Shown: positions 14,334 through 17,724 of the stretch, one piece after another
How positions within the stretch are numbered: the first letter of the stretch is position 1
How the letters are laid out: the number at the start of each line of letters is the position of its first letter
Assembly: GCA_003212515.1 (NCBI GenBank)
Contig: QCPL01000013.1
Span: 1-40,616 of the forward strand
Origin: Prochlorococcus sp. AG-436-M02
GTDB lineage: Bacteria > Cyanobacteriota > Cyanobacteriia > PCC-6307 > Cyanobiaceae
Reading direction: 5' to 3'
Length of the DNA: 40,616 nucleotides
Notes under the pieces: generated by a model
Database searches by the model: none
Told to the model about the DNA's origin: nothing
Seen by the model: only the letters and a program-made list of their open reading frames with translations
Translations under genes and position numbers: made by a program

Positions 14334-15104
14334 TTAAATCCAAGGATCCTCTTCATTTTCATTATATAAATTAGAGTTATTGTAATCAGAAGAATAATAA
14401 TTTTTATCATCAATCCAATTATTAGTTACATTATATTTATCTTCTGAATCAAAATCTTCAGAAAAAGAAGTTTTAAAGTTTCTATTGGAAAGGTCTAAGG
14501 GTTTTTCATCTAACCAGCCTTCTAATTTTTGATTAGCAATATTAGATAATTCTAAAAAATTTTCCTTAAATTTTTTACTCTTTTTCAAAAAATCTTCCCT
14601 AAGACTACTCTTTATTAAAGGTAAATCATCAATATTATTTATATTACTTGAAACACAACCAGGTTGCTGATCAACTATGTTTTCCAAATCAAACCTCCAT
14701 CGACTTGTACCTGGAAATTTGGGATTAGATCTAGAAACTAAATAATATAAAATATTTCCTGTTTTAGTATCAAATATAAGATCAGCAATATTTCCTATTT
14801 TCTCATTTTTTATATTTAAAAGAACTGCATCCATTAATGTAGGAAATCTATTAATAGTAGCTTGATCAGATTCAGCAGGTAAACCCTTTACAATTATATC
14901 TTCATAAGTAATAGCCCTTAATTGATCTAACCTCCAAATGTTTCTTTTTAAACTTAATTGAGAAGGACGACTAGCCCAACCAAGCAAACGGTGTACAGGA
15001 GGATACATCCATCCCATTACTCCGTTACCATGCTCAAAACCCTTATTACAGCGAACATTATGCTGCAATAAACTACTAAGTAAATAATGAGTGGGGATAG
15101 ACAA
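14334..15104 (-). CDS. PRC-barrel-like protein of unknown role
   Basis: The core (about residues 75-140) looks like a PRC-barrel: [20 protein letters not shown], then [19 protein letters not shown] and [21 protein letters not shown]-barrels occur in photosynthetic reaction-centre H subunits and RNA-processing proteins, so the fold does not fix a function. The N-terminal block [14 protein letters not shown] (about 36-49) also looks conserved. The last 60 or so residues are low-complexity and rich in Asn, Asp, Ser and Tyr. The TTG start at 15104 is one base after the dnaN stop and has no clear ribosome site. An internal ATG at 15017 ([13 protein letters not shown]) is a good alternative. Its place between dnaN and purL implies cotranscription with both. 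Confidence 0.7.
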
Positions 15105-15105
15105 T

Positions 15106-16257
15106 TTAAGAACGTATTTGTACTGGCATCACTAAATAGGTAAAATCCTTATCATTCTGAATAGGAGTAAAAATAGCAGGCGTTGTAGGAGCATTAAATT
15201 TTAATAAAATAATATCGGACTCAATTAATCTTAAGCCCTCCAGTAAATATTTAGAATTAAATGCAATTTCAATATCATCATAATCAAAACTAATTGGTAT
15301 TGATTCAAAACCACTTCCTAAATCTTGAGCTTCTGCAGTAATATTTAAAACATTTTCTTTTTTATTAGTTGAGATTTTAACTACATTATTATGCTGTTCT
15401 GCAAGTACAGAAATCCTATCCAAAGCCAAAATGAAATTTTTACGATTTAATTCCAATTGGTATTGAAATTGTTCTGGAATAAGCTGATTATAATTAGGAT
15501 AAGTTCCATCTAAAGTTCTAGTTGTAACTATTTGATCTGAAGAAATAAAAACAACTTGACCATGATCATAAAAAAAACTGATCTCAGTATCAGAGGTACA
15601 TGAAGAAAGAAATCTTTCTACCTCTCTTAAAGATCGAGATGGAAGAGTTACTTCTATATTTTGATTAATACTAGTTCCATTATCAGAAGAAAGAACATTA
15701 TCAAGAGTTAAAACTGCTAAACGATGTCCATCAGTAGCAGCTGATTTAATTGAATTATTATTAAAAGATAAGTGGACACCCGTTAAAATTTGCTTAGCCT
15801 CATCTGTACTACTTGCAAAAAGTGTAGAGCGTAATGAATTTGCAAAAGCACTTGCATTTATTTTCAAAAATGATTCATTTTCAACAATAGGTAATTCTGG
15901 AAAATCTTCTGCACTCATTGACCTTACTTGATATGTTCCACTTTTACTTGTAATTTTTACTTGGTCCTTAGAATCATCTGAAATTAAAGTTATAGGAGAT
16001 TCATTTGATAATTTAGAAATAATTTCACCAAAAAGCTTAGAAGGCAAAGTGATAGCACCACTTGAATCAATGGAAGCTGTTACGGATGTCTGAATTCCTA
16101 GATTCAAATCAAATCCAGTAAGACTCAATTTACCTGTTCCAGCATCAGCAGTTAATAACACATTGGCGAGAACAGGATGTGTTGGTCTATTGGCAACAGC
16201 TCTACTAACAAGTTGAAGTGCTGTATTGAGTTCAATTTGAGAGCAAACAAGTTTCAT
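15106..16257 (-). CDS. dnaN: DNA polymerase III beta subunit (sliding clamp)
   Basis: DnaN is the ring-shaped clamp that tethers DNA polymerase III to DNA. The 383-residue protein starts MKLVCSQIELNTALQLVSRAV and has the typical three-fold repeated clamp architecture. Recognisable pieces are NRPTHPVLANVLL (24-36), ATDGHRLAVL (about 174-183), TLDGTYPNYNQLIP (about 250) and the C-terminal PVQIR in place of the canonical MPMR end. It is the first gene of a minus-strand block with the PRC-barrel gene, purL and purF, reading away from the gap that appears to be the replication origin. dnaA is not adjacent, unlike in many bacteria but as expected for cyanobacteria. Confidence 0.97.
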   Translation of the reverse strand: MKLVCSQIELNTALQLVSRAVANRPTHPVLANVLLTADAGTGKLSLTGFDLNLGIQTSVTASIDSSGAITLPSKLFGEIISKLSNESPITLISDDSKDQVKITSKSGTYQVRSMSAEDFPELPIVENESFLKINASAFANSLRSTLFASSTDEAKQILTGVHLSFNNNSIKSAATDGHRLAVLTLDNVLSSDNGTSINQNIEVTLPSRSLREVERFLSSCTSDTEISFFYDHGQVVFISSDQIVTTRTLDGTYPNYNQLIPEQFQYQLELNRKNFILALDRISVLAEQHNNVVKISTNKKENVLNITAEAQDLGSGFESIPISFDYDDIEIAFNSKYLLEGLRLIESDIILLKFNAPTTPAIFTPIQNDKDFTYLVMPVQIRS

Positions 16258-16363
16258 GAACTGAAGCTAACGATCAAACAATAGAAAAGAAATGCTTGAT
16301 TGGCATCTTTTTTAAATTATTTGATTCTTTTCTATTTCTATCTTTAAAGAATAATGAATATGA

Positions 16364-16375
16364 TAGTAGTAGTAG
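16364..16375 (+). repeat. TAG triplet run, candidate DnaA-trio element
   Basis: Four perfect tandem TAG triplets lie 13 bp upstream of the first DnaA-box-like site, separated from it by a G-rich spacer. Upstream in the same register are looser triplets (TAA, TGA, ATA, TGA). The DnaA-trio is a repeated 3'-(G/A)AT-5' motif that DnaA binds as single strand next to a DnaA box and a short GC-rich segment. The orientation here agrees with that arrangement. Confidence 0.55.
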
Positions 16376-16388
16376 AGGGTGGGGAAAC

Positions 16389-16397
16389 TGTGGAAAT
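16389..16397 (-). promoter_or_regulatory. DnaA-box-like site 1
   Basis: The + strand reads TGTGGAAAT, so the minus strand is ATTTCCACA, one mismatch from the cyanobacterial-type TTTTCCACA. It is the box nearest the TAG triplets. It shares the 12-base context AACTGTGGARAT with site 2. Confidence 0.6.
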
Positions 16398-16441
16398 GTT
16401 TTTTTTTGATGATCAACAAAGGGTTTTTAGATAAATAAAAC

Positions 16442-16450
16442 TGTGGAGAT
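16442..16450 (-). promoter_or_regulatory. DnaA-box-like site 2
   Basis: The + strand reads TGTGGAGAT, two mismatches from the reverse complement of TTTTCCACA. It begins exactly 53 bp after site 1, about five helical turns, in the same orientation. Confidence 0.5.
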
Positions 16451-16462
16451 ACTTTTTTTCTC

Positions 16463-16471
16463 TGTGGGCTT
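16463..16471 (-). promoter_or_regulatory. weak DnaA-box-like site 3
   Basis: The + strand reads TGTGGGCTT, sharing the TGTGG core of sites 1 and 2 but diverging after it. It begins 21 bp after site 2, two helical turns, in the same orientation. Alone it would not be convincing. Confidence 0.3.
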
Positions 16472-16541
16472 TTTAACTTGTTTTCACAGATGATTCCATT
16501 TTTGTTGAAAACCTATGCGTATGATTTTTTGTTTTTGTTCA

Positions 16542-16550
16542 TTTTCCCCA
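16542..16550 (+). promoter_or_regulatory. DnaA-box-like site 4, opposite orientation
   Basis: The + strand reads TTTTCCCCA, one mismatch from TTTTCCACA, oriented opposite to sites 1-3 and on the thrC side of the gap. A further near-miss, TTTTCACA (one base short), lies at 16481-16488. Confidence 0.4.
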
Positions 16551-16614
16551 GGTTTTTTGGGTTAATTTGGTCTTCTTCCTCAGTCAGAAAAATAATTGGC
16601 TTGATAATTTGTTT

Positions 16615-17724
16615 TTAAAAGCCCATATTTTCAGCAACTATTTCTTCCTTTGGCTCAATTCCTGATTTAAATAAAGCGTCATTATTTTTGATTGCACAAT
16701 CAGGATCTTTAAGGCCATTACCAGTTAAAACACAAACTACAGTTGAATTTTTTGGTATCTCATCTTTTATTTTTAATATTCCAGCTATAGATGCTGCACT
16801 AGCTGGTTCGCAAAAAATACCTTCTTCTTTTCCAAGTAATTTATATGCATTTACAATTTCACTATCTGTTACCTTAGTGAATTTTCCATTTGATTCTTTG
16901 CGTACATTAATAGCTTTTTCTTTATTTACGGGATTGCCTATTCTAATTGCAGTGGCAATTGTTTCTGGGTTATTTATTGTTCTTCCTAAAACAAGTGGTG
17001 CTGAACCTTCAGCTTGAAATCCCATCATTCTTGGTAGTTTTTTACTTATACCAGCATTAAAATATTCTTTAAAACCCATCCAATAAGCAGTTATATTTCC
17101 AGCATTACCCATTGGAATACATAAGAAGTCTGGTGCCTCTCCAAGAGAATCAATAATTTCAAAAGCGGCTGTTTTTTGCCCTTCTAAGCGATAAGGATTT
17201 ACTGAATTTACTAGAGTTATAGGAAATTTTTTAGCTAAATTTTGCACTATTTTTAGAGCCTCATCAAAATTACCCTTTATTGCTAATACTTCTGCTCCAT
17301 AGACAAGTGCTTGAGCAAGTTTTCCTTGAGCAACATATCCATCAGGTATTAAAACAAAGCTACGCATTCCACCTTTTTTTGCATAAGCAGCTGCTGATGC
17401 CGATGTGTTTCCTGTACTAGCACAAATAACAGCTTTACACCCTTCTTCTTTTGCCTTGCTTATTGCCATTGTCATTCCTCTATCCTTGAATGAGCCAGTA
17501 GGATTTAATCCGTCATATTTTGCATATATTTTTATATTTTTACCTATTATTTTATTTATATATTTTAATTCCAGGAGAGGCGTTCCTCCTTCTTGGAGAG
17601 TAATTACAGGAGTCTTTTTATTAATTGGAAGCCATTTTTCATATGCTTTTATTAGTCCAGGCCATTGCTTAAAAGAAACATTATTTTTGTTTGATTTGAT
17701 GTTTGTCAAAAACTTGCTTATCAT
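16615..17724 (-). CDS. thrC: threonine synthase
   Basis: ThrC converts O-phosphohomoserine to threonine with pyridoxal phosphate. The 369-residue protein has the PLP-binding motif [13 protein letters not shown] with Lys 80 as the likely Schiff-base residue. It also has [19 protein letters not shown] (about 102-120), the phosphate-binding [12 protein letters not shown] (about 204-215) and [10 protein letters not shown] near the C-terminus. This short form without the extended N-terminal domain is the usual bacterial type. It is the last gene of a minus-strand set with an ABC1 kinase and a DUF1400 gene, starting 4 bp after the DUF1400 stop. It reads toward the presumed origin, so it is transcribed against the replication fork. 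Confidence 0.95.

Follow-up and report, generated by a model that had tools for sequence, protein, structure and literature searches.

The window considered here is the whole stretch of DNA that was analysed, 40,616 bp from a draft genome of Prochlorococcus (1.5 Mb in 53 contigs, 82.8% complete), whose closest named relatives by dnaN are Prochlorococcus AG-363-B11 and AG-436-K22 (86-87% identity). Within it, a short intergenic gap separates dnaN from thrC and holds a cluster of DnaA-box-like sites together with a triplet tract. An open frame of 256 aa (14334-15104, minus strand) lies right after dnaN and had no NCBIfam match at E 0.001. The features, in the order of their positions in the window, are as follows:

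15106-16257, minus strand: dnaN, DNA polymerase III beta clamp (TIGR00663, 326 bits, cut-off 137.65)
16258-16614, no strand: dnaN-thrC intergenic gap of 357 bp, the chromosomal origin (oriC)
16306-16363, no strand: AT-rich stretch, probable DNA unwinding element (84% AT over 58 bp, against 66% for the window)
16364-16375, plus strand: four putative DnaA-trios, 3'-GAT-5' four times, TAGTAGTAGTAG; trio 1, nearest the boxes, is 16373-16375
16376-16379, no strand: gap of 4 bp between box 2 and trio 1
16380-16388, minus strand: DnaA box 2 of the putative basal unwinding system (BUS), GTTTCCCCA; the weaker box, two mismatches, C at position 7
16389-16397, minus strand: DnaA box 1 of the putative BUS, ATTTCCACA; the better match, one mismatch to TTTTCCACA
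16442-16450, minus strand: further DnaA-box-like site ATCTCCACA, two mismatches
16480-16488, plus strand: further DnaA-box-like site GTTTTCACA, opposite direction, two mismatches
16503-16511, minus strand: further DnaA-box-like site TTTTCAACA, one mismatch
16542-16550, plus strand: further DnaA-box-like site TTTTCCCCA, opposite direction, one mismatch
16615-17724, minus strand: thrC, threonine synthase (TIGR00260, 323 bits, cut-off 167.1), on the other flank of the origin

The E. coli-type box pattern TTWTNCACA had zero matches in the dnaN-thrC gap, and boxes were therefore scored with the cyanobacterial motif TTTTCCACA, mismatches being allowed. DnaA-box-like 9-mers with at most two mismatches numbered nine in the gap (25 per kb), as against 8 per kb across the window. 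Read on the minus strand toward dnaN, which is the first gene past the trios, the element runs ATTTCCACA (box 1), GTTTCCCCA (box 2), CCCT and CTA CTA CTA CTA, and then enters the AT-rich stretch.

A preliminary description of this DNA had reported a DnaA-box-like site at 16389-16397 (TGTGGAAAT on the plus strand), four perfect TAG triplets at 16364-16375 and an AT-rich stretch reaching to about 16306, and we recovered all three at these positions; the 58-mer with the highest AT content in the vicinity begins at 16308. Between box and triplets it had seen a 13-bp G-rich spacer. The stretch 16376-16388 (AGGGTGGGGAAAC) does separate box 1 from trio 1 by 13 bp and has G or C in 8/13 positions, but it resolves into the second, weaker box followed by the 4 bp that precede trio 1. 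The looser triplets said to lie beyond the fourth were not borne out: on the minus strand these read TCA, TAT and TCA, none of which gives a central A on the trio strand, so that the run is exactly four. In other bacteria, weak boxes of the ATP-DnaA type have been reported to be marked by a C at position 7 (PMC8235120), and by analogy box 2 of the window may behave as a box of this type.

By itself, the triplet repeat is unremarkable. With up to one mismatch, the 12-mer occurred once in the window (mean of 0.10 in shuffled sequences, at least one in 8/100), and across the whole 1.5-Mb draft genome the exact 12-mer was present twice and a backward-read control five times. It is in combination with a box that the repeat is remarkable: when CTA triplets were sought within 0-16 bp of a box with at most two mismatches, the gap contained a run of four, while 5000 single-base shuffles of the gap gave a maximum of two.

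In the architecture published for the BUS, two boxes in succession are followed by a gap of about 4 bp and by a minimum of three NAN trios on the appropriate strand, and the published search asked for at least three adjacent NAN triplets with an allowed spacer equal to box plus gap (PMC8287927). In the window, both boxes have at most two mismatches and lie 0-16 bp from the trios; the trios are four adjacent 3'-GAT-5' units, where at least three 3'-NAN-5' units are called for, on the strand running 5' to 3' toward the boxes; and AT-rich DNA adjoins them. The site is in the chromosomal origin, on the evidence of the dnaN-thrC gap and of a skew switch tested in the relative G010, and the DnaA of the window genome has, at the level of residues only, the equivalents of N187, I190, I193, R202 and E228. 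Box, box, 4 bp and triplets form the textbook BUS arrangement, and the earlier reading as a trio-type unwinding element is supported by the fixed register and the keto-skew switch described below.

Like the B. subtilis BUS (DnaA-boxes 6/7; PMC6669920, PMC8287927 and PMC10721633), the window has two co-oriented boxes separated by only a few base pairs from 3'-GAT-5' trios that occupy the same strand, followed by AT-rich DNA, and the capture residues of DnaA are conserved. The strand opposite the trios reads 5'-CTACTATTACTTCTACTA-3' in B. subtilis (PMC10201434) and CTACTACTACTA, in the same direction, in the window. The window has exactly four perfect GAT trios whereas B. subtilis has six mixed ones, and, unlike that of B. 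subtilis, the Prochlorococcus origin is not next to dnaA, which lies 538 kb from the origin in G010. A system from the same phylum is that of S. elongatus, whose DnaA unwinds its own BUS in vitro in a reaction that needs both boxes and trios (PMC8287927); relative to it, box 2 of the window (GTTTCCCCA) is weaker. This reconstitution in a cyanobacterium qualifies the earlier remark that no such element was known from a picocyanobacterial origin. Genome G328 reads TTTTCCACA TTTTCCACA gccc CTA CTA CTA CTG. According to work on DoriC and Ori-Finder (PMC6323995, PMC10225481), cyanobacterial oriC usually lie beside dnaN with TTTTCCACA boxes, and DnaA-trios are annotated by program. Prochlorococcus trios may well be listed in these resources already, and the genus may figure in published BUS tables.

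Because the window genome is a draft in 53 contigs, chromosome skew was drawn in G010, a complete genome of the same genus, from 20 sampled segments of 20 kb each, which add up to 400 kb of its 1.75 Mb. All 10 segments within the first 800 kb had positive keto skew and all 10 past 870 kb had negative keto skew; the local minimum of keto skew coincided with the end of the record that carries dnaN. For GC skew, the expected sign was seen in 8/10 and 9/10 segments, respectively (17/20). A skew minimum at the site had been put forward as a check in the preliminary description. In 500-bp steps across the window, it appeared in keto skew (minimum at 16.0 kb, with the sign change at the gap in G010) but not in cumulative GC skew, the minimum of which was at 20.0 kb. 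The local GC-skew minimum lay about 4 kb off the site in both genomes (-4 kb in G010), and we preferred keto skew since GC skew alone was noisier and its minimum was misplaced by this distance.

Conservation was followed in family f1, which we take to be Cyanobiaceae, with GC-rich members that are presumably the picocyanobacteria Synechococcus and Cyanobium. There, dnaN was matched in 276 of 300 genomes, and DNA upstream of it was read for 139 in a non-random sample (30 best-scoring loci, 29 chosen entries and 80 chosen places). A 34-bp frame comprising box 1, box 2, 4 bp and the four triplets fitted without gaps in 138 of the 139, such that the triplets, spacer and box keep the single register across relatives that the preliminary description had proposed looking for. 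G025, in which no such site was found near dnaN, was excluded from the alignment; some records start just upstream of dnaN, and 4 of the remaining 138 are without part of box 1. Anchoring on box columns only, with a matrix built from the same rows, returned an identical triplet start in 134/134 cases with complete boxes. With 47 genera weighted equally, all 12 trio columns carried 1.0-2.0 bits and 13 of the 18 box columns 1.07-2.0 bits (1.3-1.9 bits at positions 2-6 of box 1), compared with a background of 0.26 ± 0.26 bits over 173 columns (highest 1.16). The first base was identical in 138/138 genomes for trios 1 and 3, and in 134/138 for trios 2 and 4. Box 2 of the window aligned column by column with box 2 of the 138 genomes, and the 4-bp gap was constant in length in this ungapped alignment with weakly conserved bases (0.43-0.86 bits). 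The distance from the site to dnaN took 40 values within the family, from 118 to 210 bp.

We divided the family genomes by the composition of their upstream DNA into GC-rich (>42% GC; 62 genomes, 18 genera) and AT-rich (76 genomes, 29 genera). Even among the GC-rich relatives the DNA past the trios was AT-rich, averaging 70-75% AT between +15 and +45 (counted from trio 1), and the two bins that cover the boxes averaged 36-53%. An additional conserved element, TGTGRAANCNTGG, part of which is a reversed DnaA-box core, was located 32-62 bp upstream of dnaN in 49/62 GC-rich and 1/76 AT-rich family genomes, and possibly represents DnaA control of dnaN. Furthermore, in the 16 genomes of clade g56 (L018, L019, L022-L026, L028-L031, L067, L068, L072, L075 and L077) the BUS boxes read about NNAACCACA: the T before CCACA (position 4) was lost from box 1 in 16/16 and from box 2 in 15/16 (TTAACCACA, GAAACCACA or AAAACCACA), with CCACA kept in both. 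For 14 of these the upstream sequence extended further, and their boxes near positions -74, -132 and -173 relative to trio 1 matched the standard motif with at most one mismatch. A changed box specificity of DnaA in this clade was considered and rejected, as the DHTTV stretch of domain IV, which we take to be the recognition helix, was unchanged in four DnaA proteins.

Outside the family, 56 of the 128 genomes with a dnaN match were read, and a site was called at a matrix score above 15 bits with CTA as the first triplet. A like site was present in 38/56 genomes and in 21/29 other cyanobacterial families, at up to 638 bp from dnaN. The remaining 18 had no like site near dnaN, and in seven of these (G331, G344, G349, G398, G405, G412 and G417) the tandem boxes were kept and the trios gone. 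In L238 and L240 of family f15 the tandem boxes (one and no mismatch) were followed by GTGCGATCGCAC/T in place of trios, a sequence that includes the palindrome GCGATCGC, presumably HIP1-like. In family f32 (L165, L169, L171, L175, L246 and L247), no trios were found within 700 bp upstream of dnaN in 6/6, with dnaA present in 6/6; L169 and L246 had perfect tandem boxes, TTTTCCACA GTTTCCACA, and then unrelated sequence. Loss of trios by way of a loss of dnaA was ruled out, since dnaA was present in 18/18 of the site-less outgroup genomes, and their origins may be elsewhere, for example beside dnaA. DnaA-independent replication, as described in PMC7198777, is a candidate context for such genomes.

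The central base of the trios varied in a restricted manner. Over four trios in each of the 138 family genomes (552 in total), A accounted for 432 of the centres on the trio strand, C for 116, and G and T for two each. Among AT-rich genomes, the centres of trios 1-3 were always A, and that of trio 4 was A in 62 and C in 14. The GC-rich genomes had A in 142, C in 102, G in two and T in two, so that C made up 102 of 106 non-A centres. Diverged sets of triplets, such as CTA CGA CTA CGG, kept the 3-bp beat though they no longer form a repeat. Under the NAN rule, at least three adjacent NAN trios counted from trio 1 were found in 3/62 GC-rich sites, and even with any phase of the 46-bp site in 25/62; with A or C allowed at the centre the count rose to 58/62. 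Among the AT-rich sites, 72/76 accorded with either rule. The published search (PMC8287927) would thus pass over 59/62 GC-rich sites if started at trio 1.

Changes were counted by parsimony on a dnaN tree of 101 tips, 92 from the family and nine from the outgroup, the latter chosen by eye from 16 loci because the site was visible (some of the other seven later scored positive). On the complementary strand, the centres underwent 31 changes within T/G and four leaving it; the corresponding counts were 80 and 275 for the 20 bp downstream (Fisher 8e-15, a guide only, since rounded parsimony counts were treated as independent) and 1 and 38 for the box T columns. The ratio of T>G to T>C was 15:1 at the centres, compared with 68:94 in the downstream flank (7e-5), 91:91 in the upstream flank (5e-4) and 1:14 at the box T columns, these Fisher values again taking rounded counts as independent and serving as a guide only. 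The third trio base drifted by ordinary A>G transitions (19, with six A>T and no A>C), which makes the centre the odd one. Replacing A:T by C:G or by G:C has about the same effect on duplex stability. With the cost to the duplex about equal for C and G in the trio strand, melting alone would be insufficient to account for the bias, and a strand-specific reader would explain it.

Work on B. subtilis bears on which reader this might be. When C replaced the central A of trio 1, strand separation proceeded at a similar rate in vitro, and in cells a C centre was better than G or T for growth and initiation; the reason given for tolerance of C was that A and C both present an amine to Asn187, and the authors raised the possibility that DnaA homologs recognise a broader set of sequences (Pelliciari et al. 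2023, PMC10721633). A 2021 survey suspected deviant trios without a central A. The A-to-C pattern breaks the published NAN rule in most GC-rich relatives and fits the amine-capture rule of B. subtilis, and on sequence grounds picocyanobacteria look like natural cases of non-A-centred trios. In the passages of the DnaA-trio literature that we covered, natural C-centred trios were not described, although cases may be noted elsewhere.

The DnaA of the window genome is encoded on another contig. In an alignment with the B. subtilis BUS complex 8btg, its equivalents of Asn187, Ile190, Ile193, Arg202 and Glu228 were all identical to those of B. subtilis, in which these residues hold the trio bases (PMC10721633). 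All five were kept in 90 of the 91 cyanobacterial DnaA loci that cover the region (92 in total, L236 being partial), as well as in 35/35 checked DnaA proteins from genomes with C in trios 1-3. They were also kept in genomes without a site near dnaN; the mechanism is therefore permitted by these residues, not proven. The sole exception among the 91 was the DnaA of G152 (L207), with Ser for the amine-reading Asn187 and Lys for Arg202, in a genome whose origin has four GAT trios. Eight other genomes of its genus, g17, which we take to be high-light Prochlorococcus, kept both Asn and Arg.

Of the alternatives, the most durable concerns the A-to-C pattern only and invokes GC-driven mutation, with no selective preference for an amine in the central trio position. 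The pattern is indeed found mainly in GC-rich genomes, the two kinds of A:T replacement are nearly equal in duplex stability, and the contrast with the upstream flank, in which T>G is as frequent as T>C, is weaker than with the downstream flank. Nevertheless, the near-confinement of centre changes to T/G, in a setting where most downstream changes leave this pair, and the 15:1 ratio of T>G to T>C, approached at none of the other three sets of columns, make this account unlikely. A second alternative is that a protein other than DnaA, for instance a transcription factor or a helicase loader, recognises the triplets in duplex form or through the opposite strand. The T/G keto pair of the CTA strand would also constitute a major-groove signal, and in B. 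subtilis the strand complementary to the trios is recognised by DnaD as TnnT (PMC10201434). However, a T-to-G change would destroy TnnT, yet G is the main change allowed, and both the constant 4-bp spacing from the DnaA boxes and the agreement with the amine rule of DnaA itself point to DnaA, leaving another reader highly improbable.

It is more doubtful still that the triplets are a TAG microsatellite, placed by chance or slippage next to ordinary DnaA boxes, with unwinding from the AT-rich stretch only: four TAG units are a simple repeat with a second genomic copy, and the backward-read control is commoner, but the register with the boxes is fixed in 138 genomes of 47 genera, the first bases of trios 1 and 3 never vary there, and triplets that have ceased to be repeats stay on the 3-bp beat, so conservation already largely contradicts this reading. 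Just as improbable is an element that regulates dnaN, as promoter or DnaA-controlled operator, instead of unwinding DNA, for although the site is upstream of dnaN in 138/139 family genomes read, its distance from the gene is variable in the family and more so beyond it, a separate conserved element lies closer to dnaN in most GC-rich genomes, and the skew switches at the site.

We conclude that the window element very probably serves this Prochlorococcus origin as its basal unwinding system, on the sequence evidence of its parts and their order, direction, spacing and conservation, of the skew switch at the homologous gap in a relative and of the DnaA residues; binding, polymerisation, base capture, unwinding and helicase loading would follow the pattern of other bacteria. 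In this mechanism, DnaA would bind double-stranded DNA at the co-oriented pair of box 1 (16389-16397) and box 2 (16380-16388), and the paired boxes would set its AAA+ domains at trio 1. From there, DnaA would polymerise leftward, toward dnaN, on the plus strand, with each pair of neighbouring DnaA molecules capturing the 3'-GA dinucleotide of one trio. The duplex would open over the trios (16364-16375) and on through the AT-rich DNA as far as about 16306, and helicase would be loaded there. In the relatives, trio centres of A or C are consistent with capture via the exocyclic amine.

The window element is a canonical case of the already known BUS class, and the C-centred relatives are the unexpected part. 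The sites of the GC-rich relatives are homologous to it and would be BUS-like, working by a wider code. We consider it probable that the natural picocyanobacterial trio code is 3'-G(A/C)Y-5' and not NAN, with repeated gains and reversions of C-centred trios among GC-rich lineages, and with G and T barred by the amine-reading pocket of DnaA.

These results provide base-level coordinates for the probable site of chromosome opening in a phototroph that is among the most abundant, with a box-box-gap-trio register that is kept across the family and present in many other cyanobacterial families. The relatives serve as a natural experiment on the reading of single-stranded DNA by DnaA, in which nearly the only change seen is the one that keeps the amine, and so lend evolutionary support to the strand-specific base capture previously shown in B. 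subtilis. This suggests a wider rule for finding such elements in GC-rich bacteria, one that picocyanobacterial origins with A-centred, C-centred and mixed trios make directly testable. If it is true, some origins scored as BUS-less would simply be C-centred, and evolution would have repeated in picocyanobacteria the base-substitution experiment done by hand in B. subtilis.
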